NCBI GenBank assembly: GCA_018268395.1
Contig: JAFDWQ010000005.1
Location: forward strand, 283,939-347,938
Source of the DNA: Armatimonadota bacterium
Lineage (GTDB): Bacteria > Armatimonadota > Fimbriimonadia > Fimbriimonadales > Fimbriimonadaceae
Reading direction: 5' to 3'
DNA: 64,000 nt
Of this stretch, positions 47,413 to 63,063 are shown one piece after another. The position numbers and the translations under genes were made by a program. Position 1 is the first letter of the stretch. The number at the start of each line of letters is the position of its first letter. The notes beneath the pieces were generated by a model. It was not told the origin of the DNA. It saw nothing but the letters and a program-made list of their open reading frames with translations, and did not search any database.

Positions 47413-47498
47413 GGAGGAGTCCAGTATGACGCGTGTCGGCCTGTTTTCGGGATGGACGTGCGGTCGACCGTGGCGACTCGGAGTGGTCGGGTGGAAAG

Positions 47499-47543
47499 TG
47501 GCTGCCGCAGTAGGACTCGAACCTACGACCCGCTGATTAACAG
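47499..47543 (-). tRNA. 3' part of tRNA-Asn(GTT), left attachment site
   Basis: Minus strand: anticodon loop CTGTTAA (anticodon GTT), 3' anticodon stem TCAGC, T arm GTAGG-TTCGAGT-CCTAC, acceptor strand TGCGGCA, discriminator G and encoded CCA (ending 47499). The 5' half is missing: the bases before the anticodon loop read CGAGC, not the GCTGA needed for the stem, and no D arm or matching acceptor strand (TGCCGCA) lies beyond. The break at the anticodon loop with an integrase next to it is the usual result of tyrosine-integrase insertion; the intact gene should lie at the far right end of the element. Confidence 0.8.
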
Positions 47544-47681
47544 GCTCGAGTTGGCTCAAATCTCGGCGTCTCAGCACGTCTCTTTTAAGTTCAACTCGTT
47601 AGGAGTCCTATCTACTGAGGTCTCTTGTCGTCTCTCTAAATCCATCGCGTAAACTGCACTTAAACTGTGGCTTTCTCGGAT

Positions 47682-47687
47682 ACAATG
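47682..47687 (+). promoter_or_regulatory. -10 hexamer TACAAT upstream of the integrase
   Basis: TACAAT (five of six matches) about 24 nt before the integrase ATG; the upstream TTAAAC is a weak -35 candidate at short spacing. Confidence 0.4.
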
Positions 47688-47710
47688 CTTTCACGGAGCA
47701 TTTGAAAAGG

Positions 47711-48880
47711 ATGGCCAAGAACGAGAGACGTGAGCGCGGCACGGGCAGCATTTTCAAGCGTGGCAACGGCTACGTCGCGCAGGTGTTGGACGGCTACAGG
47801 GACGACGGTTCGCCGCGATACAGACAGATCCGAACCAAGAACCAGGACGATGCCGTTAAGGCCCTCAACGACGCCAATTCTAAGCTCTCGCAGGGCCTAC
47901 CCCTGCTTGAAGGCAAGAGCCCGAGGCTCGGCGTGTGGCTCGACATGTGGCTTGAGGAGTACATCAAGCCGAACCGGGAGCCGAAGACCTACGACTTCTA
48001 CAAGCTACACATTGAGAAGCGTCTCAAACCAAACTTGGGCCGCATCGACATTCGTCGCCTTCGACCAGTCGACGTCACGCAAATGATGCGTGTCATCGAA
48101 GAAGACGGGGCGTCGAAGATCACGATAAGTGCAACTAGGCGGACACTTCGCGCGGCACTCACGGTGGCGATGAAGAACGGGCTGTGCGGCGACAACCCCG
48201 TCACAAAAACATTCGCACCCAAAATCCAACGGAAGCGCAAGGTGTACTTTGACGCCGAGCAGGTTCAGGCACTGTTGGCGGCATTAGCAGGCTCTTCTGT
48301 CGAGAACCTTGTCAGATTCACCATGGCGACCGGAGTCCGGGTCGGTGAAGCAACCGGGATCACGTGGGAGAATGTCAACCTAGACAAGCAGACGGTACTG
48401 ATCGAGAACCAGCTCCAGAGAATCGGGAAGAAGTTAGAACTCAAGCCTCTCAAGACCGAAAAGAGCATCAGGACGATGCCGCTGGTCGGGCATTCGCTGG
48501 AGGCAATTCAGAACGAGAAACTTCGACATGCCATCGAAGGGTACGTAAACCCACTTGGGATCGTGTTCTTGAACCCCTGGGGTCGGCCCTTCGATCCGAA
48601 GTTCGTCAACGCCCGACTGCACGAGGCTTTGACAGCGGCCAATTTACCAATAACCGGCATGCACTCGCTGCGCCACAGCGTAGCGACCTTCATGTTGATG
48701 TCGGGGCTCAACATGCACCAGGTCAGTCGATACTTGGGCCATTCTCAGATCGCTCTTACGTCCAACCTTTACGGCCACGTTTTGGACAAATCGATGCGCG
48801 ACGCCGCGGAGGCTCTCCAGACTTCCTATCTAGGGGTGACTCCTTCCGAATCCAGCGGTTCCGAACCGGAGGTGAGGTGA
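47711..48880 (+). CDS. tyrosine site-specific integrase
   Basis: 389 residues. N-terminal SAM-like and AP2-like DNA-binding regions (about 1-170; GTGSIFKRGNGYVAQV is typical of phage/ICE integrases), then the catalytic domain with R210 (MATGVRVGEA), the beta-hairpin lysine near 249-251, H318-x-x-R321 (HSLRH), H344 (YLGHSQ) and nucleophile Y354 (SNLYGHV): a complete active site. It points away from the tRNA-Asn fragment 170 bp upstream, which is its likely target. ATG at 47711; a TTG three codons earlier has a GGAG nearby. Confidence 0.95.
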   Translation: MAKNERRERGTGSIFKRGNGYVAQVLDGYRDDGSPRYRQIRTKNQDDAVKALNDANSKLSQGLPLLEGKSPRLGVWLDMWLEEYIKPNREPKTYDFYKLHIEKRLKPNLGRIDIRRLRPVDVTQMMRVIEEDGASKITISATRRTLRAALTVAMKNGLCGDNPVTKTFAPKIQRKRKVYFDAEQVQALLAALAGSSVENLVRFTMATGVRVGEATGITWENVNLDKQTVLIENQLQRIGKKLELKPLKTEKSIRTMPLVGHSLEAIQNEKLRHAIEGYVNPLGIVFLNPWGRPFDPKFVNARLHEALTAANLPITGMHSLRHSVATFMLMSGLNMHQVSRYLGHSQIALTSNLYGHVLDKSMRDAAEALQTSYLGVTPSESSGSEPEVR

Positions 48881-49723
48881 GTGGCCCCGTCAAGAGACCA
48901 AGAAGAGAATCGGCGTCAAATAGAGCGCACAATCTTGAGGCTTGAGTCTGAATACGACTTTCCCGGGTTCCTCGACCATCTTGCGTCAGCGATCGATATC
49001 TTTGGCCTAAGTAAGGTCGAGTATCCAGACTTCGGACGGTTTTGGGCTGGTGTCAAGGAAGTCAATGGAATGTTCTCGGACTTGGAACTGCATCGCTCCG
49101 ACAGGGCCGCACTTCGGGAAAGGCTTTCAAACCTCTGTAGCGTTGCCAAGGAGTCTCAACAGGAATACCGGACTGAGTTCAATCGTCAGTGCGATGACCA
49201 TCGAGATGAAATCTCGGTTGCGATCCTAGGACTTCGAAATAGTCACGACCTGGACTGGTTGGGCACCATGATTGGTGGCCCTGACTTAAAGTCGTTTTGG
49301 GCCGACCAGGCAGAAGTGCGGGAGCTCTTCAAGACCCTCAAACCGCTGAGAAGGGACGAACGCGAGAAGCTCTGGGATGAGCTCAACGCACTTTGCGACA
49401 AGGCCCGCTACTACCAGGATCAATTGAACCGGGCAAGAGACGGCAGGAGGGAGGAGTGGCGCTCTAAAATGCATGACTTGATCGACTCCTGGAGCCAGCA
49501 GGTCGATAAGAAGAACGTTCTCATCGATCGAATATGTGGACAAATCCAAGACCTTGAAAGCAGGAAAAGTGACGCACGCACAGAAGAATTCGCGGACACA
49601 GTGCAAGGTTGGATTGAAGACAAGGAGACATTTATTTCTAAACTTGAGTCTCAGATCAGTGAACTAAAGGACAAGATCACGGATGTGAGCGAACGATTGG
49701 ACGCGAGCGAAGCACGCCGCTAA
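48881..49723 (+). CDS. coiled-coil protein with two DUF349-like repeats
   Basis: 280 residues, soluble, strongly charged. Two similar units of about 75 residues are seen (about 25-105, FWAGVKEVNGMFSDLE; and about 125-190, FWADQAEVRELFKTLK), each with the tryptophan-rich helix style of DUF349, then a long coiled coil (about 190-280). GTG start directly after the integrase stop, with a strong GGAGGTGA upstream, so it is co-transcribed with the integrase. Function unknown; cargo of the element. Confidence 0.7.
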   Translation: MAPSRDQEENRRQIERTILRLESEYDFPGFLDHLASAIDIFGLSKVEYPDFGRFWAGVKEVNGMFSDLELHRSDRAALRERLSNLCSVAKESQQEYRTEFNRQCDDHRDEISVAILGLRNSHDLDWLGTMIGGPDLKSFWADQAEVRELFKTLKPLRRDEREKLWDELNALCDKARYYQDQLNRARDGRREEWRSKMHDLIDSWSQQVDKKNVLIDRICGQIQDLESRKSDARTEEFADTVQGWIEDKETFISKLESQISELKDKITDVSERLDASEARR

Positions 49724-49734
49724 AGCGCCTCCAT

Positions 49735-50181
49735 TTACTCGACGAAACGCCAAGGACTGCCAGGGGTTGTGACTTTCTCTATGAAGTCTTCTAGGTTGAG
49801 GTTCACTCGTGCGTTTGACGCTAAATCATGAAGCTGCACACTCTTGCCGCGTGCCCCATCAAAGAACGATGTCACGATGAACGTCTTTCCAGAATCTCTT
49901 TGAACAACTTCCTTGTTTCTTAAGAATTCTATTTGTGATTCCATATCTTGGGTTAGTAGCCGCGTCTGCTCTCCAGGCGGTAATTGTGTCTGATCTATGT
50001 TGACCGACAAATCGTGAGACTGTTCATCAACTCCATCGGCCTCATCTGATCTTGCCGTGCTTTCAATATCGCCATCAAGAGTTGCCGGTGATTCCGTCGA
50101 GCGTTTGGATAGTTCTTCCTCTATAGCGGGCTCTATTTCTAGCGATGTCTCTAACTGTGTGAGTTTTGGTACTTCATTCAT
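49735..50181 (-). CDS. small acidic protein, unknown
   Basis: 148 residues, acidic and disordered in its first two thirds (EIEPAIEEELSKRSTES), with a folded-looking C terminus (TFIVTSFFDGARGKSVQLHDL). A/T-rich. It faces away from the operon that starts at 50422. An ATG 7 codons earlier (50202) is possible; neither has a good ribosome site. No family recognised. Confidence 0.5.
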   Translation of the reverse strand: MNEVPKLTQLETSLEIEPAIEEELSKRSTESPATLDGDIESTARSDEADGVDEQSHDLSVNIDQTQLPPGEQTRLLTQDMESQIEFLRNKEVVQRDSGKTFIVTSFFDGARGKSVQLHDLASNARVNLNLEDFIEKVTTPGSPWRFVE

Positions 50182-50421
50182 GCTCCCAGTTAAACACTTC
50201 ATAAGTCCATTTCATAGAGGTTATTCACAAGGGTATCTGGCAAATGCGGTGAGAACATATGCCGCGCTCTTCTTCAATTCAATGGAACGCGTACAACCAA
50301 CCGAGAATCATAGTGGCGAGCTAGCAACCATCATAAGTCAGACTCGGATGAATGATCGTGTCCAACCCTGACGCTTTTTGCCGCTTGCATGGACTAGAAT
50401 GCACCCTTGGAGTTCTGACGA

Positions 50422-52017
50422 ATGTTCCTCTACCCAATCATCGCCTGCGTTGCCCTCACAATCTTGGTGACCGTTTTCGCGATAGGCGGGCTCGTCGCTG
50501 CAGGGCGGTGGCTCCGGCGCCAGACGCTAGAGCTGCAGGCCCGTGCGATGCAGCTTTCCAAGGGGGAGGATCCCTTTCCAGAGCTGACAGGACTAACGTC
50601 CGGCTCGGCCACTTCAGCGGCACTTTCGGCCTTTTCTTTTGCGGTGGCCACTGGCGATCGTGCTGAACCAGCAATCCTCGCCATAGCCCGGAGACTCAAG
50701 GAGCGGTACAGCTCGGGCGACGTGTCCGTTACTACAAGCGAGTTGATGGATCCGCTCGACCTTGAGACTGAAAGGCGGTCGTTGTTCGCCAGAAGGGCAT
50801 ACGGCATCGTTGTCTTTCTAGGTCTCCTAGGGACCGTCCTAGGGTTGCAGGCGGCCCTGGCGGACATGGGTCTCATGGGCGATCTCAAAGAAAGCAAGGA
50901 GCTCATCAGCTTTGTCAATCGGTCGAAAGACGTGCTCCAGCACTTTGGGCTAGCATTCTTTGCCACCGCAGGGGGCGTAATTGGGACGATCGCCATCGGT
51001 GCATCAGAGTATTTCTTCGCGAAGCGGCGCGAACTCACCATTCTGAACTTCACCTACTTTGTCGACACCGAAATGCGGCCGTTTATCCGCGCCAGGTTCG
51101 CCCCCGCTAACGGGGCATCCGCCTCTGCCGCAATTATCACGGTTCTAGAATCGATGGCATCGGCCCTGCCTGCCGCAGCTAAGGAGCTCACTGAATTGAC
51201 TCACCAAGCGGCTCTGGCGGCTTCCGTGTCATCCGAAGCGGCGAACAAGAGCCTGAGTGCGGCAAGCGTCCTCGACAGTGGGTTTTCGAGCATCGAGGAC
51301 CTTCCCTTGGCACTGACCAATCATCTGTCCGCGGTTCAGTCAGCTAGCCACCAACTCGTTACCACGTTGGACAAGGTATCCAGAGGATCGGAGTCGCTAC
51401 TTGTCCAACTCTCCGATACGGTGATGCGACAAACCAAATTGCTAGAGGATACATCACACTTCTTTAAGGAATCTTCCAAGCTCTCAAAGCAAGAGGTAGA
51501 GCGCGCTCAAGTTCTCACCGGCTCGATTGCCTCGACAAAGACAGTATTGGAGAGTATCCACAAGGAACTGGTGACGACAAAAAGCACAATCCCGTCGGTA
51601 ACGGACCTCGTTCAAGGCATCTCAGGTTTGCTACCAAAGTCTAATTCGGACAGTGCCACTTTGGAGCTTACGCAGGCCCTAAAGGACGTTCAACTAGCGC
51701 TGAGAAATGCCGATCGTCCAACTACTTCCCTTGAACCTAGCCGGAGTTCGATCAACCATGCAGCCCCGGTGCCCGAAATGTCGGAACTGACCTCTGCATG
51801 CAAGAGGTTGGAGGTTGAGATCCAGTCCCTTCGTACGGCTATACAGACGGTCGCGACGTTGCCGACTGTCTGTACGGCGCGTAGCCCCGCCGATCTTTCT
51901 CCTGCGGACGGAGAACTAGCAAACATCCATCGCGTGCTATTTGACATTAGAACTATTCTCCAACGATCAAGCGAGAAACGCCCGTGGTGGCAGGTTGGTG
52001 GCCGAAAAGATGCCTAG
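50422..52017 (+). CDS. ZorA-like MotA/ExbB-type membrane protein with long tail
   Basis: 531 residues. One transmembrane helix at about 4-28, a cytoplasmic stretch, then two helices of the MotA/TolQ/ExbB proton-channel type: GLLGTVLGL (134-142) in the second and FFATAGGVIGT (179-189) in the third. A tail of about 320 residues, rich in Ala/Ser/Leu/Glu heptads, follows. This is the architecture of ZorA, the stator-like subunit of Zorya anti-phage systems: a channel plus a long intracellular coiled tail. It is first in the operon and overlaps the ZorB-like gene by 8 bp. Homology judged from motifs and layout, not from alignment. Confidence 0.78.
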   Translation: MFLYPIIACVALTILVTVFAIGGLVAAGRWLRRQTLELQARAMQLSKGEDPFPELTGLTSGSATSAALSAFSFAVATGDRAEPAILAIARRLKERYSSGDVSVTTSELMDPLDLETERRSLFARRAYGIVVFLGLLGTVLGLQAALADMGLMGDLKESKELISFVNRSKDVLQHFGLAFFATAGGVIGTIAIGASEYFFAKRRELTILNFTYFVDTEMRPFIRARFAPANGASASAAIITVLESMASALPAAAKELTELTHQAALAASVSSEAANKSLSAASVLDSGFSSIEDLPLALTNHLSAVQSASHQLVTTLDKVSRGSESLLVQLSDTVMRQTKLLEDTSHFFKESSKLSKQEVERAQVLTGSIASTKTVLESIHKELVTTKSTIPSVTDLVQGISGLLPKSNSDSATLELTQALKDVQLALRNADRPTTSLEPSRSSINHAAPVPEMSELTSACKRLEVEIQSLRTAIQTVATLPTVCTARSPADLSPADGELANIHRVLFDIRTILQRSSEKRPWWQVGGRKDA

Positions 52018-52708
52018 CGCGAGATATAGAAGGGCTCGGTCAGAACCCAATGCATACGTTGTATTAGTCGACATCACGCTTGCTGTCGCCTTCTTCTTGA
52101 TTGTGTTCGCAATAACCTTTGCGATGAATAATAGCCAATCAATATTCAAAATGACACGAGAAGAACGGCAGGTCTTAATCAGAGGTCAGTTCGCAGATGC
52201 TCTGTGCACTGCTCTCCAGGGTCGGCGCGGCACGTGGAATTCAGAAGAGCGAAGACTCCCGATTGTCGGTCCCAATGGCGTTCCGGTCGCCGAGATATTC
52301 GAGAACGCGAGCTATCAGCGAATATCGATTTACGCACCACAGTTTGAACGCGGCTCCAGCTTGCCGACGGAACAATCGCGGTCTTCATACCGGCAGATTG
52401 GTGCGGTCATTGCAACGAATCGCAAGAGCTTCAGTTACCTTCAACTTCAAGGCGTGGCTGAGCCGTCCGAGCTTTCTAACGATGCCGAGAGAAAAGCGCT
52501 CAGCAGAGCTAGGGCAGATTCTGCGGAAGATGTTCTTGTGCAGGAGGGTCTCATTCGAGGTGCCAGTTCCCAGCAAGATCGAGCCACATCGCCTTGGATG
52601 GATCTTCAGTTCGTTGTTCCCTTTGGAGTTGGCTCGCGGCTGTACGCAGATTGGCAAGGAAACCGTCGTGTCGATTTTATCGTGTTTTATCCTGATAACG
52701 AACAATGA
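52010..52708 (+). CDS. ZorB-like MotB/OmpA-type protein
   Basis: 232 residues. One N-terminal transmembrane helix whose start carries an aspartate (YVVLVDITLAVAFFLIVF, D21), as required for proton passage in MotB/ExbD/ZorB; then a periplasmic domain ending in an OmpA-C-like fold: LQLQGVAEPSEL, LSRARADSAEDVLVQEGL and GNRRVDFIVFY (compare the usual LSxxRAxxV...L and NRRVEI). The GHTD motif that anchors OmpA domains to peptidoglycan reads GVAEP. ATG at 52010 was chosen because the frame upstream overlaps the ZorA-like gene. Directly follows its presumed partner; next gene overlaps by 4 bp. Confidence 0.75.
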   Translation: MPSARYRRARSEPNAYVVLVDITLAVAFFLIVFAITFAMNNSQSIFKMTREERQVLIRGQFADALCTALQGRRGTWNSEERRLPIVGPNGVPVAEIFENASYQRISIYAPQFERGSSLPTEQSRSSYRQIGAVIATNRKSFSYLQLQGVAEPSELSNDAERKALSRARADSAEDVLVQEGLIRGASSQQDRATSPWMDLQFVVPFGVGSRLYADWQGNRRVDFIVFYPDNEQ

Positions 52709-53514
52709 AACTAGCTCGATGCACCAATTGTTTTTTCCCTACCGCGACGGTTATCTCACGATGCCCAGGCTGCGACACCATTAGGACGGAATCCGAAGGA
52801 GTTGAGGAGTGCATTTGCGTCGCAGCGTATGGATCGATAAGGGCTCTGGGTTCCGTGCAACTTGCTCTTAACTCGGAGAGTGCCAAACTCCTGGGAAATG
52901 AGGCTGTTAGGACTAACCCCGAACTTGCGCAGCTGCTCGTGTATAACGAGTGCCCCTTGGAGTCGGGCGAATATTGGACTGCCTTACACACCCGGCGTCT
53001 CGTCTTCTGCGACATACCCGTCCTCGCTCTGGACTGTTCCCGCAATTCGGCACGGGACATAGAGGCCGTAGCAATCTTTGGCGTTGCCCTTGCCGACCAT
53101 AGCGTCAATAGGAGCGGCCTCGTTGTGATAGTATGCACCCATCAGATGTTAGAGCTGGCTCCACCTGCTGTTCGTGCGACCACCGGATCTTGGAGCAATG
53201 ATCGCACCGACATATGGGAATCCCGAAAGATGTTGACTTGGGACTGGGTCGGTGAGACTTTTCCGTCGCTGGCCCACGCATTGTCTGACAGAGTCCTGCT
53301 GAAATGGAATGTCGCCTGCACCGCCTCGGGGGCAAATCTTGGAAAAAGGTCGATGACAAAGAACCCCAGCCGGGGAGGCGGGCTGGTCTTAGAGGCTCTC
53401 CTCCAGGCAAGCCTCGTGTTAAAGCCCCAAGGCCGATCTATTGGGAGATTAACCGACCTTTCGTCGAGCTTGCTCGGATTGGCACTCCCAGGGCCTGAAC
53501 GGGTATCGTCGTAG
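52705..53514 (+). CDS. zinc-ribbon protein of unknown function in the ZorAB/TerY-P operon
   Basis: 269 residues, soluble. Begins with a zinc ribbon (CTNCFFPTATVISRCPGCD, two CxxC pairs), then a mixed alpha/beta region (about 35-160) with short hydrophobic strands (LVVIVCTHQML), and a tail without recognised motifs. I see no nuclease, helicase or protease signature, although the operon position corresponds to that of the effector genes in Zorya. Overlaps the ZorB-like stop by 4 bp (ATGA), and the first vWA gene starts 3 bp after its stop. Confidence 0.65.
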   Translation: MKLARCTNCFFPTATVISRCPGCDTIRTESEGVEECICVAAYGSIRALGSVQLALNSESAKLLGNEAVRTNPELAQLLVYNECPLESGEYWTALHTRRLVFCDIPVLALDCSRNSARDIEAVAIFGVALADHSVNRSGLVVIVCTHQMLELAPPAVRATTGSWSNDRTDIWESRKMLTWDWVGETFPSLAHALSDRVLLKWNVACTASGANLGKRSMTKNPSRGGGLVLEALLQASLVLKPQGRSIGRLTDLSSSLLGLALPGPERVSS

Positions 53515-53517
53515 CCG

Positions 53518-54195
53518 ATGCAGGGCTTCAAATACGTCGTTGACATCGCGATGTGCATTGACTCCACGGGGAGCATGAAGGACTTGCTGGACGTCGTCAA
53601 GACGAACGCGATGAGGTTCCAGTCAGACGTCGAAAGTGCTCTGAAGTCCAAGGGAAAGCAAGTCGATGCCCTCCGAGTCAAGGTCATCGCCTTTCGAGAC
53701 TTTTTTGTCGACAGCGCCAGGGCGATTGAGGAATCACCGTTCTTCGTCCTTCCAGAGGAAGGCACCCAGTTCAGTTCGTTTGTCAGCGCACTAAAGGCGA
53801 CAGGCGGCGGCGGAAACGGGGGCGAGTCGGGACTCGAGGCTCTGACCCTGGCGATTAGATCCAAGTGGTCGAACGATGGCGACCGTCGACGTCACATTGT
53901 TGTGCTCTGGACAGACGACGCGGCCCACAAGCTTGAAAAAGGGGCGAGAGAGAGGCCCCAGGCTTATCCGCGGGACATGCCAGCCAACCTTGAAGCCCTT
54001 ACCGACCTGTGGGAGGGACAGGGTAACATGTCAAGGTCTGCGAAGCGGCTCATTTTGTTCGCTCCGGATGCATACCCTTGGAGCGACCTCGCGAAGGATT
54101 GGGAGCTGTGCCTGCAATACAAATCTCAAGCGGGCACAGGGATCGACGGACATGACTACTCAAGCATCGTCGACGTCATCGCCAACAGCGTCTAG
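53518..54195 (+). CDS. TerY-type vWA domain protein, first copy
   Basis: 225 residues, essentially one von Willebrand A domain. MIDAS metal site: D15-x-T17-x-S19 in MCIDSTGSM, the threonine-loop region GGGGNGGESGLEAL, and LWTDDAAH. The start (MQGFKYVVDIAMCID) and the SGLEAL helix are typical of TerY/YegL-like proteins, the vWA arm of the TerY-P triad. Its near twin lies 131 bp downstream. Likely an adaptor that presents a metal-dependent binding face to the phosphatase or kinase. Confidence 0.88.
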   Translation: MQGFKYVVDIAMCIDSTGSMKDLLDVVKTNAMRFQSDVESALKSKGKQVDALRVKVIAFRDFFVDSARAIEESPFFVLPEEGTQFSSFVSALKATGGGGNGGESGLEALTLAIRSKWSNDGDRRRHIVVLWTDDAAHKLEKGARERPQAYPRDMPANLEALTDLWEGQGNMSRSAKRLILFAPDAYPWSDLAKDWELCLQYKSQAGTGIDGHDYSSIVDVIANSV

Positions 54196-54326
54196 CGCTC
54201 CACGCAGCCACCCTGCGCGCGACCTTTCGCTGATTCCCCACTTGGCTCCGGATTGCCAAGGCACACCCAGAGGTGAGGTAAGCTCTGTGTCCGGTCGGCG
54301 GGGCCGACGGGCGTGGGAGCACTGGT
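54196..54326 (+). promoter_or_regulatory. intercistronic region with hairpin
   Basis: 131-bp gap between the two vWA genes, more G/C-rich than the flanking genes. A short hairpin (GTCGGC-GGG-GCCGAC near 54295-54309) lies just upstream of the second vWA gene; it may attenuate or process the operon transcript. No T run. Confidence 0.35.
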
Positions 54327-55004
54327 ATGCAGGGCATAAAATACACCGTTGATCTTGTAATGTGCATCGATTGCACAGGAAGCATGGGACATGTGATGGA
54401 ATTAGTAAAACAACATGCTCTCAAGTTTCATGACGACGTGCGGCGCGAATGCGAGGCCAAAGGCAAGTTCATCGATACCATGCGAGCTCGGATTATTGCC
54501 TTCCGCGATTTCTACGCCGACGGCAGCGACTCACTGGTTGTCTCAGACTTCTTCACACTGCCTGATCAATCCTCGGAATTTTCCGCCTTTGTCAGTGGCC
54601 TGAACCCTTCTGGAGGAGGAGATCTGCCGGAATCCGGGCTAGAGGCTCTGGCTATTGCTATCCAGTCTCCTTGGAACACCGTTGGAGATCGAAAAAGGCA
54701 GGTAATAGTCATGTTTACTGACGACGCCGCGCACCCCCTTGAGAAAGATGCCGGATCGAAACCAGCAGTCTATCCGCCTGACATGCCGAAGAACTTCTCT
54801 GCTCTAACAGACTTGTATGACGGACAGGCCAGCCCGATGCTCTCCAGCGCCAAACGACTCATCATTTACGCTCCAGACGCGACTCCGTGGACAGAAATAA
54901 TGTCCCATTGGGACAATGTCGCTCACCTGGCTTCCCAAGCTGGGAAAGGACTTGAAGAACACGATTACAACCAGATTGTTGATATGATCGTGGGCAGCAT
55001 CTAG
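54327..55004 (+). CDS. TerY-type vWA domain protein, second copy
   Basis: 225 residues, the same length as its upstream paralogue and collinear with it throughout (MQGIKYTVDLVMCIDCTGSM; PSGGGDLPESGLEAL; MFTDDAAHPLEKD). The MIDAS residues are conserved. A cysteine replaces the serine after the first aspartate. The second copy is more A/T-rich in codon use than the first, so the duplication may be old or the copies may come from different sources. Followed after 58 bp by the PP2C gene. Confidence 0.88.
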   Translation: MQGIKYTVDLVMCIDCTGSMGHVMELVKQHALKFHDDVRRECEAKGKFIDTMRARIIAFRDFYADGSDSLVVSDFFTLPDQSSEFSAFVSGLNPSGGGDLPESGLEALAIAIQSPWNTVGDRKRQVIVMFTDDAAHPLEKDAGSKPAVYPPDMPKNFSALTDLYDGQASPMLSSAKRLIIYAPDATPWTEIMSHWDNVAHLASQAGKGLEEHDYNQIVDMIVGSI

Positions 55005-55062
55005 TCATGGAGGCCCCGCCATTTGGCATATCGTACGACGTCTTGGATACTGCCTGTTCCAT

Positions 55063-56136
55063 ATGTCCGAATCAAGGCTAATTCCAAATCCGTTACAGCT
55101 CACCTTCAATGATCCCGTCCGAGAGGATAATGGTGAGGACGCCGACCCGGTGGTTTTCACCTTTGGTTCTGCAGGTGCAATGGGCGTGTTTGACGGACTT
55201 GGTGGGGCTGGTGCAGCAACATACGCTGTAGGTGAACAGATTCGAAGTGGAGCGTATGTCGCCTCCAGAGAGTCCGCTCAGACTTTCGAGCAGGTATCAC
55301 GTTGGATACTTCGAGCCCTCGCTGGGAATGTCGGCGCCTCTTTTCTCGACGACATCGATGGATATCAAAAGTGTTTCTGGAAATGGCAATTTTCCAGGAG
55401 ACTGACCGACGAAGCTCAAAGACTTGTCCCCCAAAGGGATGAAGCGACCCAGGGAAAGTTGCAGTCGCGGATGATCCGGACTCTACCTACGACGATCGCA
55501 GCAATGTTTTACGGGCAAGACGGGAATGCAGTTGATATTGGTTGTCTTTGGGCAGGTGACTCGCGTTGCTACTTATTCACCCCAGACAACGGACTGCAAC
55601 AACTAACCGACGATGACCAAAAGCATCCGACAGACGCCTTACGTTCTTTGGTTGAAGATACAGTAATGTCCAACTGTCTTAATGCCGACGGTGATTTTCA
55701 ATTGAACTGGAAACACATATTGAGACTGGAGTCGCCTTTAATACTTGTGGCCGCTACAGACGGATGTTTCCAATATTTACTCAGCCCTGCACACCTCGAA
55801 CATGTGTTGCTCGTCAGCTTGCAAAATGCAAAGGACATGGAATCTTGGCGCGATGAGATTCGCGGGCTTATTGCTAAAGACCGAGGTGACGATGCATCAA
55901 TGGCAATAGTGGGGCTTGGATGGAAGGACTTTTCCGCCGTAAGAACATCCTTTGCGAGTAGGCTCGACCTCGTGAAGTCTAAGTTCATTGACCCTGTCGA
56001 TCAGGCCCGTCAAAACGAGAACTCGACCGACCAGGAGCAAGCGGACTTTCAGGAAGTTCGTCTAAAGACCTGGGATGAATACAAGCTTGGCTACAACAAG
56101 TATCTGCGTGATGTCGAGATTGGAGTTCCGAGATGA
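55063..56136 (+). CDS. PP2C-type Ser/Thr protein phosphatase
   Basis: 357 residues, metal-dependent PPM family. Motifs: VREDNGED (R20 and the acidic pair), FDGLGGAG (D44-G-x-G-G), IGCLWAGDSRCYLF (GDSR), VAATDGCFQYL (second metal aspartate) and the late DDASMAIVG. A C-terminal helical extension (about 295-357) is extra. Second arm of the TerY-P triad: expected to remove phosphates placed by the coupled kinase. The kinase gene starts inside its stop codon (ATGA). Confidence 0.9.
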   Translation: MSESRLIPNPLQLTFNDPVREDNGEDADPVVFTFGSAGAMGVFDGLGGAGAATYAVGEQIRSGAYVASRESAQTFEQVSRWILRALAGNVGASFLDDIDGYQKCFWKWQFSRRLTDEAQRLVPQRDEATQGKLQSRMIRTLPTTIAAMFYGQDGNAVDIGCLWAGDSRCYLFTPDNGLQQLTDDDQKHPTDALRSLVEDTVMSNCLNADGDFQLNWKHILRLESPLILVAATDGCFQYLLSPAHLEHVLLVSLQNAKDMESWRDEIRGLIAKDRGDDASMAIVGLGWKDFSAVRTSFASRLDLVKSKFIDPVDQARQNENSTDQEQADFQEVRLKTWDEYKLGYNKYLRDVEIGVPR

Positions 56137-57266
56137 GCGAGACAGTTGGAGCTTATGAGATAGTATCCAAGTTTGACACTGCTGGTGGTGGTCAATGTCA
56201 GTGGGCCTTTGCGAGGAAGGACGGCAGAGATTTCTTTATCAAGAGGTTTTTGGCGCCAAAGTATCCGACCGAGGATAGTCACGGGAGTAAGAAGACTAGG
56301 GAGGGCAAGAGGGCGCGATGTGAGGCGTTTGAGAGACACCACCGAAACCTTATGTCGCTTCTTTCAGATGCTTCTGGGGCAGGTTCTAACTTGATCGTTG
56401 CAACAGACTTTTTTCGAGATGGAAGTATCTACTACAAGGTAACGGAAAAGGTAGATGTGGATTCGTTGACCATTGAGGACATTTCTCGACTTCCACTTGA
56501 AGAACGGTTGACGATTATGATTTCAGTCGCAAGTTCCGTTGGCCGTCTTCACAGCAAAGGAATTGTTCACGGCGATTTGAAGCCTGATAACATCTTGATT
56601 CAGCGCGACATGTCCGGAAAGTTTGTGGGGAGGTTGATCGACTTTGACAATAGCTTCGTGGCCGGTAGCCCGCCGAAGAACCCCGAGGAGGTAGTAGGTG
56701 ACTTGGCGTTTTATTCGCCTGAGCTCGCCGCGTACATCCAGGGCGTGAAGGGAGTATCGGGGACGAATGTCACGACTGCCTCAGATGTGTTTGCACTTGG
56801 GCTCGTTTTCACCCGGTATGCAGCGGGGACGTTTCCCGCCTGGGACAAGCGGTATCCATATGCCTTTCAGGCCGTCTCAGATGGATCCACTGTTCTAGTA
56901 CCGGACGCGGTGCCGAGCCAATTGAGGCCGCTTTTCGAGGGCATGCTCTCCAGCGATCCGTCGATTCGACCGAGAATACAGACCGTGTTTGACGATCTTA
57001 AGAAGGTTCGGAGCGGGCGGACACTAGGCGACCCCGCAGCCGCAGCAATGAGGCCAAGCGGGGTTACTGGCAAGCTGACGCTAAAGGCAAAGTCCGAGAG
57101 CGTGGAGCCGAGCACTGAAGGTCCAGCGGCCCTCGTGAGGCCACACTTGAAGCTTTCCAAGAACCTAGAGTCTAAACCGACCGTAGGTTCAGTCACGCCG
57201 GAGCCGGCCGTGGAGACAAAACCCACGCTACGAATTAGGTTTGGCAAGAAGCCAGGGTCTTCTTAG
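56133..57266 (+). CDS. Ser/Thr protein kinase (HGD-type)
   Basis: 377 residues. Kinase core at about 8-295: glycine loop TAGGGQCQWAFA, K37 (FFIKRF), the catalytic loop HGDLKPDN (146-153, with G in place of the usual R of HRD), the metal motif DFD (170-172, DFG-equivalent), and SDVFALGLVFTRY. A proline/lysine-rich C-terminal tail (about 300-377) has recurring L-x-L-K strands (KLTLKAKSE, HLKLSK, TLRIRF), perhaps a substrate or docking element; no transmembrane helix. Third arm of the TerY-P triad, overlapping the phosphatase by 4 bp. Last gene of the operon. Confidence 0.9.
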   Translation: MSETVGAYEIVSKFDTAGGGQCQWAFARKDGRDFFIKRFLAPKYPTEDSHGSKKTREGKRARCEAFERHHRNLMSLLSDASGAGSNLIVATDFFRDGSIYYKVTEKVDVDSLTIEDISRLPLEERLTIMISVASSVGRLHSKGIVHGDLKPDNILIQRDMSGKFVGRLIDFDNSFVAGSPPKNPEEVVGDLAFYSPELAAYIQGVKGVSGTNVTTASDVFALGLVFTRYAAGTFPAWDKRYPYAFQAVSDGSTVLVPDAVPSQLRPLFEGMLSSDPSIRPRIQTVFDDLKKVRSGRTLGDPAAAAMRPSGVTGKLTLKAKSESVEPSTEGPAALVRPHLKLSKNLESKPTVGSVTPEPAVETKPTLRIRFGKKPGSS

Positions 57267-57315: not shown

Positions 57316-57774
57316 TCACTTCCGAAGGAATCTTGCTGTAGCTCGTGTGGCCAATAGGATAAGTTGGATCGCTAGGTTGAACAGCCGGAGCCAGAAGTCC
57401 GCGAGCTCTCTTTTCCAGGCCTCACTCAGCAGAGGCCAGAAAACGAACGAGAGGAACGCCAACCCGACTATTAGTGTTAGAGCTCGGTCGAGAAAGTAAG
57501 ACAAAACACGACCTAGGGTGCTCCAGGTGATTTGAAACGCTGGAGGGACTACGAGAATCAGGATTAGCCCGATCAACAGCCAAGTGGCCACCCGAAGGTT
57601 CACGCTCGTGACGCCGGGGCTCAGCTTTGTGGAACCGCAAGTCGTACAGACCTTTGCGTCGAGCGGGCTCTCATGACCTTCGCTGCAGGCTCTCACGCCC
57701 AGCGTCGCTCTACAATTGCCGCACCACTTCGTTTCCTGCGGCCAGACTCGCTTGCACTTCGAGCAAAGGATCAT
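57316..57774 (-). CDS. zinc-ribbon membrane protein
   Basis: 152 residues: N-terminal double zinc ribbon (CSKCKRVW, CGNCRATL, CSEGH, CTTCGSTK) then two or three transmembrane helices (about 63-85, 92-112, 125-145). No family recognised. Last gene of a three-gene minus-strand operon (the start overlaps the preceding gene by 4 bp) with a Replic_Relax-like protein and a coupling-type ATPase. Confidence 0.7.
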   Translation of the reverse strand: MILCSKCKRVWPQETKWCGNCRATLGVRACSEGHESPLDAKVCTTCGSTKLSPGVTSVNLRVATWLLIGLILILVVPPAFQITWSTLGRVLSYFLDRALTLIVGLAFLSFVFWPLLSEAWKRELADFWLRLFNLAIQLILLATRATARFLRK

Positions 57775-58448
57775 GACCAGACCTCCGGGACGGCTACACC
57801 CGACTCACAGAACGTGAGGCATCTGAACCGTTCGTCTGCCTGTGCAAGAGCCGCAAAATGCCGCTTTCTGCGCTCGCTCGTCGTGAAGGTCAAGACCCGC
57901 AGTTTGGACGCGTTGTAGGCCCGTTCAAAGGCGCCGCAGAGTTCGTAGTTTCGGTAGGCGAGGAGCTTTCGCGAGAACTTAGTCGACGAAGAATGACCCA
58001 GATCGACTTCTATCAAAGTCGGGTGTCCTTCTATGACCGCCATGCCGTCCGGTCGCACTTCGTATGTCTTGCCATGGAAGGCAAACGAGTGCCAGAGCTG
58101 AGCCTCGAAACGCCAGGCTTCACCTCCTTTTGCGAGAACAGAAATCCGAACCTCTGTCACCGAGAGGGCGTGGAGCAGAAACCGGGGCGAAGCAGGACGG
58201 TTTGTCAACAACTGCGCTATCCGTGCACCGACAATTTCCGCTGCCTCGATTGTTGCCGAATAGAGTCTCTGTCCGTGGAACGGTGTCAAGAGTGGTCGAA
58301 CGAGGCCGCTTTTGGAGAGCCTGCTCATCGTCCGGTTGCATCGAGAGACCGATTTGAAGTATCCGAGCTTCACTAGCTGATCTCGGCTCAGGACATGACT
58401 TAGGGCGACGTCTCGAAGCAAGCGAACGTCACGTTCTGTGATCCTCAC
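57771..58448 (-). CDS. Replic_Relax-like protein
   Basis: 225 residues. N-terminal winged helix (MRITERDVRLLRDVALSHVLSRDQLVKLGYF, then RTMSRLSKSGLVRPL), followed by a mixed domain with EVRPDGMAVIEGHPTLIEVDLGH, close in layout to the replication-relaxation (Replic_Relax) family of plasmid and ICE proteins. The D...E-V-D strand pair could be a decayed or active nuclease centre. Coupled by 4-bp overlaps to the ATPase before it and the membrane protein after it. Suggests a mobilisation or replication role. Confidence 0.75.
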   Translation of the reverse strand: MRITERDVRLLRDVALSHVLSRDQLVKLGYFKSVSRCNRTMSRLSKSGLVRPLLTPFHGQRLYSATIEAAEIVGARIAQLLTNRPASPRFLLHALSVTEVRISVLAKGGEAWRFEAQLWHSFAFHGKTYEVRPDGMAVIEGHPTLIEVDLGHSSSTKFSRKLLAYRNYELCGAFERAYNASKLRVLTFTTSERRKRHFAALAQADERFRCLTFCESGVAVPEVWS

Positions 58449-59794
58449 AGCCAGTCCCCCAGATCAATGTCGGGCCCATCCCCTTTTTTCGGTTCGGGGG
58501 GCGCAGGCTTAGTTGTTTGGTCGGGAGAGCGTGCAAGCACCTTTGCACGAAACCGCTTGATGGCGCGGTCGGAAGCCCTCTTTCCAGGAGCGTCAAATTG
58601 AACGAGAGCCGACTCACCGTCGCGGGTCTGGACGAACGCCTGGCCCACGCCGAGCTGCCGAACGTCGTCCAGCGTCCTTTCCCCTCCAAGCTCCCGCGTG
58701 ACGACTTGCGCATCTTCAAAACCCACCTGGAACAGGATTTGGAGGCCGACGTTGTTGCGAACGACCGAACGAAGCTTGCTTGGGAGTTGAGCTAGGGTCT
58801 GGTGCGAGAGCACGAGGGACAGCTTGAACCTCCGCCCTTCAGCGATGAGGCCCTCAAAGCTCTCAGAAGCCATGTTCTCGAATTCGTCGACGTAGAGCCG
58901 AACCGGATTTCTATTCCTCTCAGGCACGTCGACACGGGCCAGCATTTCGCGAGCGATCGCTGAGACCACGAGACTCCCGAACATTCGGGCCGAACGCTGA
59001 AGCTCGTCTACTGCAAGAGAAATCAGAACAATCTGGCCGGGTTTGCCGAGGACTTCTTCGAGATTGATTGGCTCACAGTCTCCGAGGATGCGGCGAAGGT
59101 TTGGCACCGCAAGAAGCGAGGTGACTTTGTTGAGGACAGGCAGTGCCCAAGCGTGTTGCTTTTCCTTGCTGAATTCGTTGAACCGAGCCCAGAAGTCAGT
59201 CAGGTCGTCATCGGAGACGCTTTTCAGGCATTGATCCCGGAAGGTCGGGTCGAAAAAGACGTCGTGCAACCTCGGAAGCGGTACTCCTGAGCTTGCCATC
59301 AGAAGCAGTACCGAACGGAGCGTCTCTTCGAGCTGGACGCCCCAACTAGGCGATTCGCTCGCCAGTACGTCGAGAACGTGAAGAGCCCGGATGAACGGCT
59401 CGCCCGCACCGGACAGTGGGTTGAAGCCGAACATTCTCCCCTTTTCCCTGAGATCGAGAAGTGTGACGCGGGCCGGATCGATGTCCCTTTTCTCGCACAG
59501 CCCGAGCACGCCTGCCACAAGGTCGCCACGAAGATCGACGACGACCAGCGAGTGCTCGGCCTGAATGTCCTGGTCGATGAGCCGCAGGATGAGGCTCGTC
59601 TTGCCGCAGCCCGTGCTACCGAGAATGTAGCAATGCCGAGCAAAGTCCGAGGCCGTAAAATCCAGCCGTTCGCCAGTTTCGCAGTCAGTGGCAAGAGCCG
59701 TGTCAAGCACAGGCTTGTTCGTGCAACGTTTGCCAGATGCCAACTGGGAAAGCCAGACCACAGGCCGTTCGATGAGGTCGAGTAAGTGTTCCAT
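58445..59794 (-). CDS. TraD/VirD4-like type IV coupling ATPase
   Basis: 449 residues. Walker A GSTGCGKTS (59-67), Walker B VRLYVDEFENMA, a downstream RRFKLSLVLSHQTLAQLPS (TraG/TraD-like sensor region) and GERTLDDVRQLGVGQAFVQ typical of the TraM-recognition/AAA_10 group. No N-terminal transmembrane helices, so it is a soluble form, as in small mobilisable elements. No relaxase of a MOB class was recognised; the next gene (Replic_Relax-like) may take that role. ATG at 59794 chosen; the frame continues upstream across the divergent gene. Confidence 0.85.
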   Translation of the reverse strand: MEHLLDLIERPVVWLSQLASGKRCTNKPVLDTALATDCETGERLDFTASDFARHCYILGSTGCGKTSLILRLIDQDIQAEHSLVVVDLRGDLVAGVLGLCEKRDIDPARVTLLDLREKGRMFGFNPLSGAGEPFIRALHVLDVLASESPSWGVQLEETLRSVLLLMASSGVPLPRLHDVFFDPTFRDQCLKSVSDDDLTDFWARFNEFSKEKQHAWALPVLNKVTSLLAVPNLRRILGDCEPINLEEVLGKPGQIVLISLAVDELQRSARMFGSLVVSAIAREMLARVDVPERNRNPVRLYVDEFENMASESFEGLIAEGRRFKLSLVLSHQTLAQLPSKLRSVVRNNVGLQILFQVGFEDAQVVTRELGGERTLDDVRQLGVGQAFVQTRDGESALVQFDAPGKRASDRAIKRFRAKVLARSPDQTTKPAPPEPKKGDGPDIDLGDWL

Positions 59795-59825
59795 CGTAAA
59801 CTGATGTGAACTTTGGGGAACGGAG

Positions 59826-60920
59826 ATGGGGCGCACAACCGGCATAACGGTTTCTTTAGGGCAGGCTAAAGCCAAGCCCTTTGGCATCGTCTTGCGCGAT
59901 GCGATCAAAGAAGAGTTCGGAACCAACCTGGAGTTCGCCCGCGCCGCGGGCAAGACCCAAGGACGAATCTCTCAGGTCATCAATGGCCCCGAGTTCCCGG
60001 ATGCCAACACCCTTTCCTGGGTCTTGGAGACGTTTGTTTCTTTCAAACTCAGGGAACGCATTCGTGAAGCGTGGGTTCGCGACTTCGCCGCTCCCCGGCT
60101 CGACAGCGATTGGCTAGACGGAGGCGACGCGGTGTTATCGCGCATTAATGAGTTGGCCGAACAGGATCCTCGGCTCGCCCTGCGCTTCGCCGAGCAGCTT
60201 CGCACGAGGCTTGACGATCCAGAGGCCTGGCAGCAAGCTACCGAGCGGGTAGTGCACTTGAGGCTTCGCTTAGCTAGTCCAGGAACTGCCGCCGTTGTCA
60301 TCAGCGAAATGGAGCGCCAGGCCACGGTGCGCGATGATCCACTGGATCTCCTGACCAGCCTTTGGATGCGGGGCAACGTGCTCAGGAACCTGGAAAACGT
60401 GCCTGCCGACACCCTCCTCAAGACTCACCAGAAGGCCGTGCAGTTTGCAGACGCGTTTACGCCGAGCGATCGAAGCGGCCGGGAAAGATGGCTCAACCGC
60501 AAGGCTCAAATGGACAGGGATTTTGCCCTTCACATGCTTTCGTTCCATGAGAGGAAGCCACTCAGTGAACACGACTTGCAACTGGCACTTCGAGCCGTCG
60601 AGGACTCGATCAGGGACGGAGACGACCCAGCTTTCTACTACATGGGGATGGAAGTGAGGGCCAGAGTCGAACTCGCGATCGGCTGGGTCGTGAAGGCCGA
60701 AGACAGCATCGACGAAATCCGTGCCCAGGGACTAAAACACGGAACCGAGGTCATCGAGAAGACAGAGCTCACGCGGGCAAAAATCCTCATCGCAAGAAAC
60801 GAAAAAGAACGAGCTCTCGAGCGGCTCGTCAAGATTTCCGCGTACTGTCTTGAAAGAACGAACTTGCACCATTACCGCACTGCCGACCAGCTCATCCTCC
60901 GCCTCGTGGGAAGTGTATAG
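59826..60920 (+). CDS. XRE-type HTH regulator with TPR-like C terminus
   Basis: 364 residues. HTH at about 18-72 (VLRDAIKEEFGTNLEFARAAGKTQGRISQVI is the two-helix part), then an all-helical region of TPR/RRNPP-like repeats. Divergent from the ATPase operon with a gap of 31 bp, so it is placed to control it. RRNPP-type regulators often sense peptides; no small peptide gene is evident next to it. Confidence 0.75.
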   Translation: MGRTTGITVSLGQAKAKPFGIVLRDAIKEEFGTNLEFARAAGKTQGRISQVINGPEFPDANTLSWVLETFVSFKLRERIREAWVRDFAAPRLDSDWLDGGDAVLSRINELAEQDPRLALRFAEQLRTRLDDPEAWQQATERVVHLRLRLASPGTAAVVISEMERQATVRDDPLDLLTSLWMRGNVLRNLENVPADTLLKTHQKAVQFADAFTPSDRSGRERWLNRKAQMDRDFALHMLSFHERKPLSEHDLQLALRAVEDSIRDGDDPAFYYMGMEVRARVELAIGWVVKAEDSIDEIRAQGLKHGTEVIEKTELTRAKILIARNEKERALERLVKISAYCLERTNLHHYRTADQLILRLVGSV

Positions 60921-61150: not shown

Positions 61151-61224
61151 TTATTGTTGCTGCTCGAATTCTGATACGGCGTTTCCTATCTTCCTGTAGC
61201 GCCGGCGAGGCGTCGTGTGGATAA
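61105..61224. promoter_or_regulatory. candidate replication origin: two DnaA boxes and A/T-rich stretch
   Basis: TGTGGACAA at 61105-61113 (one mismatch to the DnaA box TGTGGATAA) and a perfect TGTGGATAA at 61216-61224, with an A/T-rich stretch (about 61130-61160) between them, next to the replication-type ORFs. The second box lies inside the end of the 61151-61477 gene. Suggestive only. Confidence 0.35.
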
Positions 61225-61477
61225 GTCGCTTCTCCGACAGTGCTTGCACAGCCTTCCAGACGGTCTCGCTACTCCGGCCCGTCCACTTCATCAACTTGCG
61301 GTAGGGCAGGACGACGGTGGCGTCAGGCTTGTTCCATCCCGCTGTTTGGCGAAGTAGAATCAGGAGCAGGCGCAATTCCGTGTCGGTCAGAGTTGGGAGC
61401 AGGGTTTGGATCAGATAGTTGGGAACCTTCGTCCAGTGCGCTTGAGACCTCGGAAGATTCAGTTTGAGCCTTGGCAT
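61151..61477 (-). CDS. winged-helix replication protein, RepO-like
   Basis: 108 residues. VPNYLIQTLLPTLTDTELRLLLILLRQTAGW and LMKWTGRSSETVWKAVQALSEKRLI are typical of the winged helix at the start of phage replication protein O and plasmid initiators. Its first 155 bp overlap the preceding gene in another frame; both frames look real (see findings). The overlap suggests coupling by re-initiation. Confidence 0.65.
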   Translation of the reverse strand: MPRLKLNLPRSQAHWTKVPNYLIQTLLPTLTDTELRLLLILLRQTAGWNKPDATVVLPYRKLMKWTGRSSETVWKAVQALSEKRLIHTTPRRRYRKIGNAVSEFEQQQ

Positions 61478-61706
61478 AGTAGAACTCTTTAGGTGGTGAA
61501 TAGTTGTTCCTGACGGCGTCCATGATGAACGCCTCGGGGCGCTTGGCCTTGCGATAGGGCAAATACTCGAGCTGTTTCTCGATCTGGTCATACGGGTAGC
61601 CGATCAGGAGTTCTTGGACTCCCTTGTGACTGACACCGAGCTTGAGCAAGTGGTATGCGATTTGTGTCGCCCGGTCGTGACCGGACAAGAGCTCTTCATC
61701 CGTCAT
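61323..61706 (-). CDS. replication-type protein fragment
   Basis: 127 residues. The first 85 residues (ATQIAYHLLKLGVSHKGVQELLIGYPYD, then RKAKRPEAFIMDAVRNNYSPPKEFY) resemble the C-terminal helical domain found in some phage/plasmid replication initiators. The last 40 residues are Ser/Pro-rich and overlap the next gene. Overlaps the nuclease gene before it by 4 bp. Confidence 0.6.
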   Translation of the reverse strand: MTDEELLSGHDRATQIAYHLLKLGVSHKGVQELLIGYPYDQIEKQLEYLPYRKAKRPEAFIMDAVRNNYSPPKEFYYAKAQTESSEVSSALDEGSQLSDPNPAPNSDRHGIAPAPDSTSPNSGMEQA

Positions 61707-62206
61707 TGGTTTTCTGCTAGAAATGAAAGGATTCTGAAAGACTGGGCTTCGAGCCCTCCGAAGAAGGCATAGTCCACCTCTCCGTGGGGACGGACACCGA
61801 TCTGGAACCGGGTGAGTAACTCGACGAGGCCGTCGCCATCGATGATCTGGAGCTTGAGCGGGTTATAGCGATCCTTGTTGCGGCGGGCCAGAGGCGAAAC
61901 GTGCTTCGTGGCAACGAGGAGGCCCATGTCGGCGTTTCGACGGATCACAGTCCCAGCGAGCTCATCGAGCATCCGTTGGCGCACCGAGTCACGCACGACC
62001 TTGACAACCACCTTCGCAGGAACCGTCCCCACATCCATCTGGCAGAGCAGTTCGTGCCCGCCATAACGCGATTTTTGACGGCTTTCCCTGCGGTCTAGGA
62101 TCTGAACGTCCCCGAACCCGGCACGAGAGAGCACCTTGGACGTGACCATGAGCAGCGAGTGAAGCGAACAGTTCTGTAGCGCACATTTGATCTGGTTCTC
62201 ATTCAT
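61703..62206 (-). CDS. Mrr-like PD-(D/E)XK endonuclease
   Basis: 167 residues. The pattern HELLCQMDVGTVPAKVVVKVV (acidic residue, then V-x-V-K), followed by IRRNADMGLLVATKHVSPLARRN and LQIIDGDGLVELL, matches the Mrr/restriction-endonuclease fold (its usual G-x-D...Q-x-K and IxLIDGxxLxxLL). The D..K centre is probably there but the first acid is uncertain. Coupled to the HTH gene (4-bp overlap) and the next gene (4-bp overlap). Could act on nicked or modified DNA, or serve in replication of the element. Confidence 0.7.
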   Translation of the reverse strand: MNENQIKCALQNCSLHSLLMVTSKVLSRAGFGDVQILDRRESRQKSRYGGHELLCQMDVGTVPAKVVVKVVRDSVRQRMLDELAGTVIRRNADMGLLVATKHVSPLARRNKDRYNPLKLQIIDGDGLVELLTRFQIGVRPHGEVDYAFFGGLEAQSFRILSFLAENQ

Positions 62207-62628
62207 AGGACTCCTTTCTCCCCGTAGCCTCGGGGATAGCGTGACGTCACCCAGGTTCCTGGCACGACGTCCGCATAGTTAGATTTGAGTGCTCCAAACT
62301 CATCACAGGCGTTTTCGGGGAGACAGCCCCGGCACCCAACTAGACCGCAGGTAAAGCGGGTCAAAAAGCGGCCCGACTCTGCGCATAAATCCCTTGGATC
62401 GATCCGGAAGCCTAGCTCCCGTTCGATCGCCTCCGTTAATCGAGCGACCATCCTGAACGAGGGATTGACCTCGCCGTGGATGACCCTAGACACCGAGGAG
62501 ATACTGACTCCAGCATCGAGGGCGAGCTTTGACGTGCCCCTGAACGCAAACCGGTCTGAATGCGCCATCACATCGGTGAACCGATTGATGACCGGCCCGA
62601 AAGCCTGGAATGGTGGTGGGTGTTTCAT
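62203..62628 (-). CDS. XRE-family HTH repressor with cysteine-rich tail
   Basis: 141 residues. HTH at about 28-60 (TSKLALDAGVSISSVSRVIHGEVNPSF), as in the lambda-repressor-like family, then CGLVGCRGCLPENAC, a four-cysteine patch that may bind metal. It begins a minus-strand operon and faces the recombinase genes across a gap that contains three TGCAA-type palindromes, which are its likely operators. Confidence 0.75.
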   Translation of the reverse strand: MKHPPPFQAFGPVINRFTDVMAHSDRFAFRGTSKLALDAGVSISSVSRVIHGEVNPSFRMVARLTEAIERELGFRIDPRDLCAESGRFLTRFTCGLVGCRGCLPENACDEFGALKSNYADVVPGTWVTSRYPRGYGEKGVL

Positions 62629-62712: not shown

Positions 62713-63063
62713 ATGTCGGATTTAGGAGCGTTTAATTCTCGCATGATGCTCCCAGAAGCAAAAACCCGGGGCGGCGTTGCAACTGGGACTTGGGACCAGC
62801 GCGGGGTCCCGCTACATTCTCAGCAGGACGATGATCACTTCTCATCGGGGCAACTTGCGTTTGCCAGGCCCATGCCGACCCAAGATGGTGTAGAAAGAGT
62901 CCGTTCGATCTGCCACCGCAAACTTGGCCGAAGCCTGTCCGACGAGGAGGCCTATGAAGTTCTGAACCGGATCATTGGGGTCGTCTATTACATTCATCTT
63001 GCTCACCTTCGATGCCCAAGTACGCGATCTACACCAGGAAGTCCAACGACGACAAAAAGCTGA
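62713..63063 (+). CDS. small ORF upstream of the serine recombinase
   Basis: 116 residues. The stretch VERVRSICHRKLGRSLSDEEAYEVLNRIIGVVYYI resembles small partner ORFs often found before large serine recombinases (pattern LGRxLSDEEAxEVxxNL). The end overlaps the recombinase start by 52 bp in another frame, so they are probably translationally coupled. ATG at 62713; nearby ATGs at 62743 and 62746 are alternatives. Function unknown. Confidence 0.6.
   Translation: MSDLGAFNSRMMLPEAKTRGGVATGTWDQRGVPLHSQQDDDHFSSGQLAFARPMPTQDGVERVRSICHRKLGRSLSDEEAYEVLNRIIGVVYYIHLAHLRCPSTRSTPGSPTTTKS

Follow-up and report, generated by a model that had tools for sequence, protein, structure and literature searches.

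Evidence for a 56.3-kb, probably mobilizable integrative element at the anticodon loop of the sole tRNA-Asn gene found in a Fimbriimonadaceae-type bacterium

A half tRNA gene beside a tyrosine integrase gene raises the question of whether it marks one end of an integrated element and, if so, where the other end lies. We examined such a locus in a window of 64,000 nt, the whole stretch of DNA analysed, which corresponds to C5:283939-347938 (C5 being contig JAFDWQ010000005.1) of a 3.72-Mb genome in 15 contigs; positions without a contig prefix are those of the window. The minus strand of 47499-47543, CTGTTAATCAGCGGGTCGTAGGTTCGAGTCCTACTGCGGCAGCCA, comprises positions 32-76 of tRNA-Asn(GTT), 45 bases that run from the first base of the anticodon loop through the 3′ anticodon strand, the T arm, and the 3′ acceptor strand to an encoded CCA. 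An earlier note on this DNA had described a truncated tRNA-Asn with an unpaired 5′ anticodon strand and no D arm, and this description holds: the five bases preceding the loop (CGAGC) can form only one of the five anticodon-stem pairs, the D arm is missing on inspection of the sequence, and ARAGORN reported no complete tRNA in the 64,000-nt window. A 585-aa ORF at 45820-47577 runs through the half tRNA; it holds an aminopeptidase gene whose true start is probably the ATG at 47412. The features of this end are as follows.

47496..47543, minus strand: attachment core at the displaced-fragment end, an exact direct repeat of C5:387749-387796
47537..47543, minus strand: anticodon loop CTGTTAA (tRNA positions 32-38), the likely 7-bp overlap, as the identity of the ends stops at position 32
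47650..47667, plus strand: putative integrase arm-site pair TAAACTG-N4-TAAACTG with an 11-bp period, a pattern found twice in 80 kb
47702..48880, plus strand: tyrosine integrase, starting at TTG 47702 or, more likely, ATG 47711 (Pfam Phage_integrase, 7e-23)

The adjoining tyrosine integrase had been called active-looking, and its sequence agrees with this: the ORF is intact and all catalytic residues are present, the R/H/R/H/Y set being invariant in an alignment of 35 integrases. Its nearest solved relative, both by sequence and by fold, is Tn1549 Int. A structure model of moderate quality (mean pLDDT 70) predicts an N-terminal domain of three strands (residues 12-17, 20-29, and 35-42) and one helix (45-60) with a local pLDDT of ~70-82, a predicted fold that matches the arm-binding domain known from the IntTn916 subgroup (PMC8138268), likewise built of three strands and a helix. 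Residues ~234-252, which we checked for the beta-stranded catalytic-domain insertion of the IntTn916 type, are modelled with low confidence.

The earlier note predicted that a full tRNA-Asn whose 3′ part equals 47499-47543 would lie downstream of the window. We found it on the same contig: an intact 76-nt tRNA-Asn(GTT) lies past the window edge at C5:387752-387827 on the minus strand, and its 3′ part is a second copy of the core, on the same strand, at C5:387749-387796 (48 of 48 bases, 100% identity, E = 6e-18). The predicted core of about 45 bp is exactly the tRNA part of this 48-bp repeat, and the agreement of the two copies is far beyond chance. With the whole tRNA-Asn as query, only two places in the genome matched with full identity, the remaining matches being other tRNAs or half of one, and the gene at the far end is the sole tRNA-Asn found in the genome. 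The prediction could have failed for want of a second core, or through an intact tRNA-Asn at a locus with no element nearby. Neither was the case: the core does recur, and the intact gene marks the far end of the element. Both cores included, the element measures 56,363 bp (C5:331434-387796) on a single contig. Judged from the sequence, a tyrosine-integrase island sited in the tRNA-Asn anticodon loop has one of its ends at position 47496.

We conclude that this Fimbriimonadaceae-type (Armatimonadota) bacterium very probably carries a 56.3-kb integrative element, itself probably mobilizable, whose own tyrosine integrase inserted it at the anticodon loop of the host's sole tRNA-Asn(GTT) gene. 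The two ends are identical from tRNA position 32 onward, where the 7-bp anticodon loop starts, as would be expected if the strands were exchanged within that loop; the remnants in related elements begin at tRNA positions 27-32. The circular form of the element would carry a copy of tRNA positions 32-76, and crossover in the loop would join this copy to the host 5′ half at the right end, where the rebuilt tRNA-Asn would keep its own promoter. The 3′ half originally present in the host would end up next to the integrase, at the left end (47496-47543), and the sole tRNA-Asn gene of the bacterium would owe its 3′ half to element DNA. We also observed a GC-rich hairpin on the element side just downstream of the rebuilt tRNA (C5:387640-387751 and the right ends L086, L092, and L100), followed by a T run in G003, G001, and the tRNA-Lys element described below; the element seems to supply its own terminator for the rebuilt tRNA.

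Both ends also carry paired direct repeats, GTAAACTGCACTTAAACTG located 107 bp inside the left core and GTAAACTGCGAATAAACTGC located 56 bp inside the right core. The pattern TAAACTG-N4-TAAACTG has only two occurrences in 80 kb, at 47650-47667 and C5:387674, one inside each element end. Since paired direct repeats flanking the core resemble the arm sites of integrases with an arm-binding domain, we regard these as putative arm sites. The integrase probably spans the distance from core to arm-site pair at each end of the element.

Downstream of the integrase, the window contains the following parts of the element.

48881..57266, plus strand: cargo encoding a coiled-coil protein, a MotA/ZorA-like protein, an OmpA/ZorB-like protein, two VWA proteins, a PP2C phosphatase, and a Ser/Thr kinase (Pfam and PADLOC matches that range from weak to strong)
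57771..58448, minus strand: Replic_Relax (MobC-type) relaxase (Pfam PF13814, 5.7e-15), conserved in three related elements
58445..59953, minus strand: VirD4/TrwB-like coupling ATPase (Pfam PF10412, 1.6e-8; Walker A GSTGCGKT)
61151..62628, minus strand: backbone of a replication-O-like protein, a small protein, an Mrr-like protein, and an HTH regulator (Pfam), a block conserved in two to three related elements
63012..64000, plus strand: start of a large serine recombinase that runs to C5:348605 (Pfam Resolvase, 3.9e-11; Recombinase, 1.3e-7)

The element has its own integrase and relaxase (Phage_integrase and PF13814 matches), and VirB4 (PF03135) has no match anywhere in the genome, which speaks against a complete mating-pore system on the element. 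A relaxase and a coupling protein without VirB4 suggest an integrative mobilizable element (IME) carrying restriction and defence-like genes. Self-transfer through a conjugation pore of its own was rejected because no VirB4 was found in the genome; for transfer, its relaxase and coupling protein would have to work with a conjugation pore provided by another element. The relaxase and coupling ATPase are kept together in three related elements, and the genes common to two to four related elements encode the PF13814 relaxase, the VirD4-like ATPase, the replication-O-like protein, the HTH regulator, the Mrr-like protein, ArdC, and HTH_17. A directionality factor would be required for excision, and the HTH_17 protein at C5:368281-368517 is the candidate for this role; an HTH_17 protein lies at or near the right end in the G089 and G008 elements. 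The large serine recombinase sits inside the element, where it may belong to a nested element or serve an inversion, and with two recombinases present, excision by the tyrosine integrase alone is an assumption.

The cargo operon at 48881-57266 may be an undescribed defence system. The ZorA-like match of its MotA protein is weak. Neither plasmids nor 250 other genomes of the phylum yielded a close relative of this protein, so its function is not inferable from recurrence. Further cargo includes a type I restriction system, TIR and RhuM proteins, a glycosyltransferase, and RHS-repeat genes. Three RHS core-and-tip fragments with different tips (C5:369403-370257, C5:378739-379587, and C5:381276-382142) have shared starts that are 77-91% identical over ~310 bp and partly inverted; they adjoin a full RHS gene (C5:375427-378720) in an arrangement like that of a tip-exchange array. 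The order of the relaxase-to-HTH block and the ArdC block is reversed relative to the G089 element.

The same insertion could have been followed by decay, with excision and movement since lost, the cargo interrupted, and the excision or transfer genes no longer working. Transposase-like fragments, IS3-like and judged by eye from translations, at C5:348861-349478 and C5:382345-382650 fit such decay, as does a backbone that is scattered in comparison with the compact G089 element. However, the two cores agree at all 48 bp, neither arm pair is missing, and the integrase, the relaxase, the coupling protein, and the candidate for the directionality factor each have an open reading frame; we consider decay unlikely. 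Far less probable is that the element is a prophage. In its favour are the tRNA site of the tyrosine integrase and a match, though a weak one, with phage replication protein O, but the relaxase and coupling protein are present and a Pfam scan of 40 proteins found no capsid, terminase, or tail domain, and we rejected this reading on the absence of structural genes from those proteins.

The integrative element has many counterparts. The nearest named relatives are Armatimonadota MAGs, Fimbriimonadaceae among them, and the integrase has a match at E < 1e-30 in 35 of the 113 genomes of the host's order. We found that 24 of 30 examined related integrase loci carry an opposite-strand tRNA 3′ half ~100-220 bp before the integrase; most of these halves are tRNA-Asn or tRNA-Lys, and some belong to other tRNAs. 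Related elements with a mapped far end have an intact tRNA there and the integrase at the half-gene end; in the small G050 element (tRNA-Asn), the integrase may lie nearer the intact tRNA. Among the mapped single elements are those of 17.8 kb (G049), 28.3 kb (G003), 39.5 kb (G094), 54.1 kb (G065), and 57.8 kb (G007). Tandem islands, in which two elements at one tRNA each have their own integrase and tRNA fragment, were observed at G075:C1:463894-510098 (23.1 + 23.1 kb) and G089:C6:4107-47967 (25.5 + 18.4 kb). A second such element is present in the same genome as ours, where a tRNA-Lys(CTT) 3′ half at C4:7990-8035 (L099) is accompanied by its own integrase, 38% identical, and the intact tRNA-Lys is on another contig (C8:180807-180882, L100). 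The arm repeats of the C4 and C8 ends match, so the C8 end and the C4 start are probably one element. tRNA fragments do occur as pseudogenes, but that our half tRNA is a chance duplicate or pseudogene with a coincidental integrase beside it is scarcely credible when the layout recurs in those 24 loci at nearly the same cut point and the arm repeats are common to both element ends.

We also compared the arm repeats across the relatives. For each of 15 related elements, the best match between the inner-left and inner-right repeats was scored against mismatched pairings. The summed score of 232, against a permutation mean of 139.5, was attained in none of 200,000 permutations, and in 1 of 200,000 for the nine elements with both ends on one contig; because the comparison was devised after the first cases had been seen and related elements share motifs by descent, these figures are support and not exact probabilities. 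In G090, the arms of the assumed ends did not match; its half tRNA and intact tRNA-Lys are on different contigs and perhaps belong to different tandem elements. The arm motifs vary among elements (e.g., TAAACTGC, TAAACGGC, TAAACTGTC, and GGTGTCA). The repeats recur every 11 bp in each of the six members measured from the integrase's 12-member clade (support 100/99) and every 12 bp in most other measured elements, with G003 and the left end of the genome's second element being ambiguous. Within the same 12-member clade, the target switches between tRNA-Asn and tRNA-Lys. There is perhaps an even chance that the choice of core (tRNA-Asn, tRNA-Lys, or a different tRNA whose anticodon arm is similar) changes frequently while the arm motif and its helical spacing track the integrase clade. 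These would then be two separately evolving specificities, with arm repeats that could serve as barcodes of element ends even across contigs and an arm-binding code that could be decoded.

The flanks of the element bear on its history. The genes beside the tRNA-Asn at the right flank have the same order in G003, whose element at tRNA-Asn differs in its integrase (39% identical) and arm motif; the orthologous flank with a different element indicates that the same tRNA was hit independently. The left flank (aminopeptidase and mqnD) adjoins tRNA-Asn in none of the relatives examined, and when the loci of these two genes and of tRNA-Asn were followed in relatives, none had both flanks joined. Since the left flank is unlinked to tRNA-Asn elsewhere, no empty site was obtained, which is the main gap in our explanation.

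Altogether, the analysis locates precisely both ends of a 56-kb mobile element truncated by the window edge, and shows the anticodon loops of tRNA-Asn and tRNA-Lys to be repeated landing sites across Fimbriimonadaceae. The mapped set of elements offers natural data on how integrases combine core and arm recognition. Among known systems, the integrase is closest to the IntTn916 subgroup (Tn916 and Tn1549; PMC8138268), with Tn1549 Int as its closest solved relative and the same predicted N-terminal domain. Tn916 and Tn1549 enter AT-rich DNA, whereas the element here is strictly in a tRNA anticodon loop; other members of the subgroup do use tRNA genes as targets. The mobilization genes resemble those of MobC/VirD4 IMEs (PMC5357655, PMC5704250): PF13814 has been assigned to the MobC family (PMC5357655), elements that encode both a MobC relaxase and a VirD4 protein of their own have been described as putatively mobilizable (PMC5704250), and here a PF13814 relaxase lies beside a VirD4-like ATPase with no VirB4 found. 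The published Streptococcus elements use a serine integrase, whereas ours bears a tyrosine integrase terminally and a serine recombinase internally; unlike them, it is also loaded with defence-like cargo.

The insertion itself is of a widespread and well-known type. The anticodon loop with its stem is similar to phage lambda attB in its core and 7-bp overlap (PMC8371274), and crossovers in tRNA genes are known at the anticodon loop, the T loop, or the 3′ junction (PMC8371274, PMC4383910). The earlier note rightly named the anticodon loop as a crossover place, but calling it typical overstated the case, as three places are known and about half of the Islander islands use this one: of 3919 tRNA islands, 3760 have a 3′ fragment and 2083 are anticodon-centred (PMC4383910). 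Islander site A islands (PMC4383910) have a tyrosine integrase, an intact tRNA at one end, and a same-orientation 3′ fragment at the other, 2-200 kb apart. In the element here, the tRNA-Asn (C5:387752-387827, minus strand) has its fragment (C5:331437-331481, minus strand) on its 3′ side on the same replicon, the integrase lies between them ~160 bp from the fragment in an element of 56.3 kb, and the identity of the ends from tRNA position 32 is consistent with site A crossover, the exact cleavage sites being inferred. We see no essential difference from these islands, and the element is an ordinary yet unusually well-marked case. The additions are the Fimbriimonadaceae host and the family-wide comparison of arm repeats, whose matched, clade-specific motifs are the most useful extension of the known island type.
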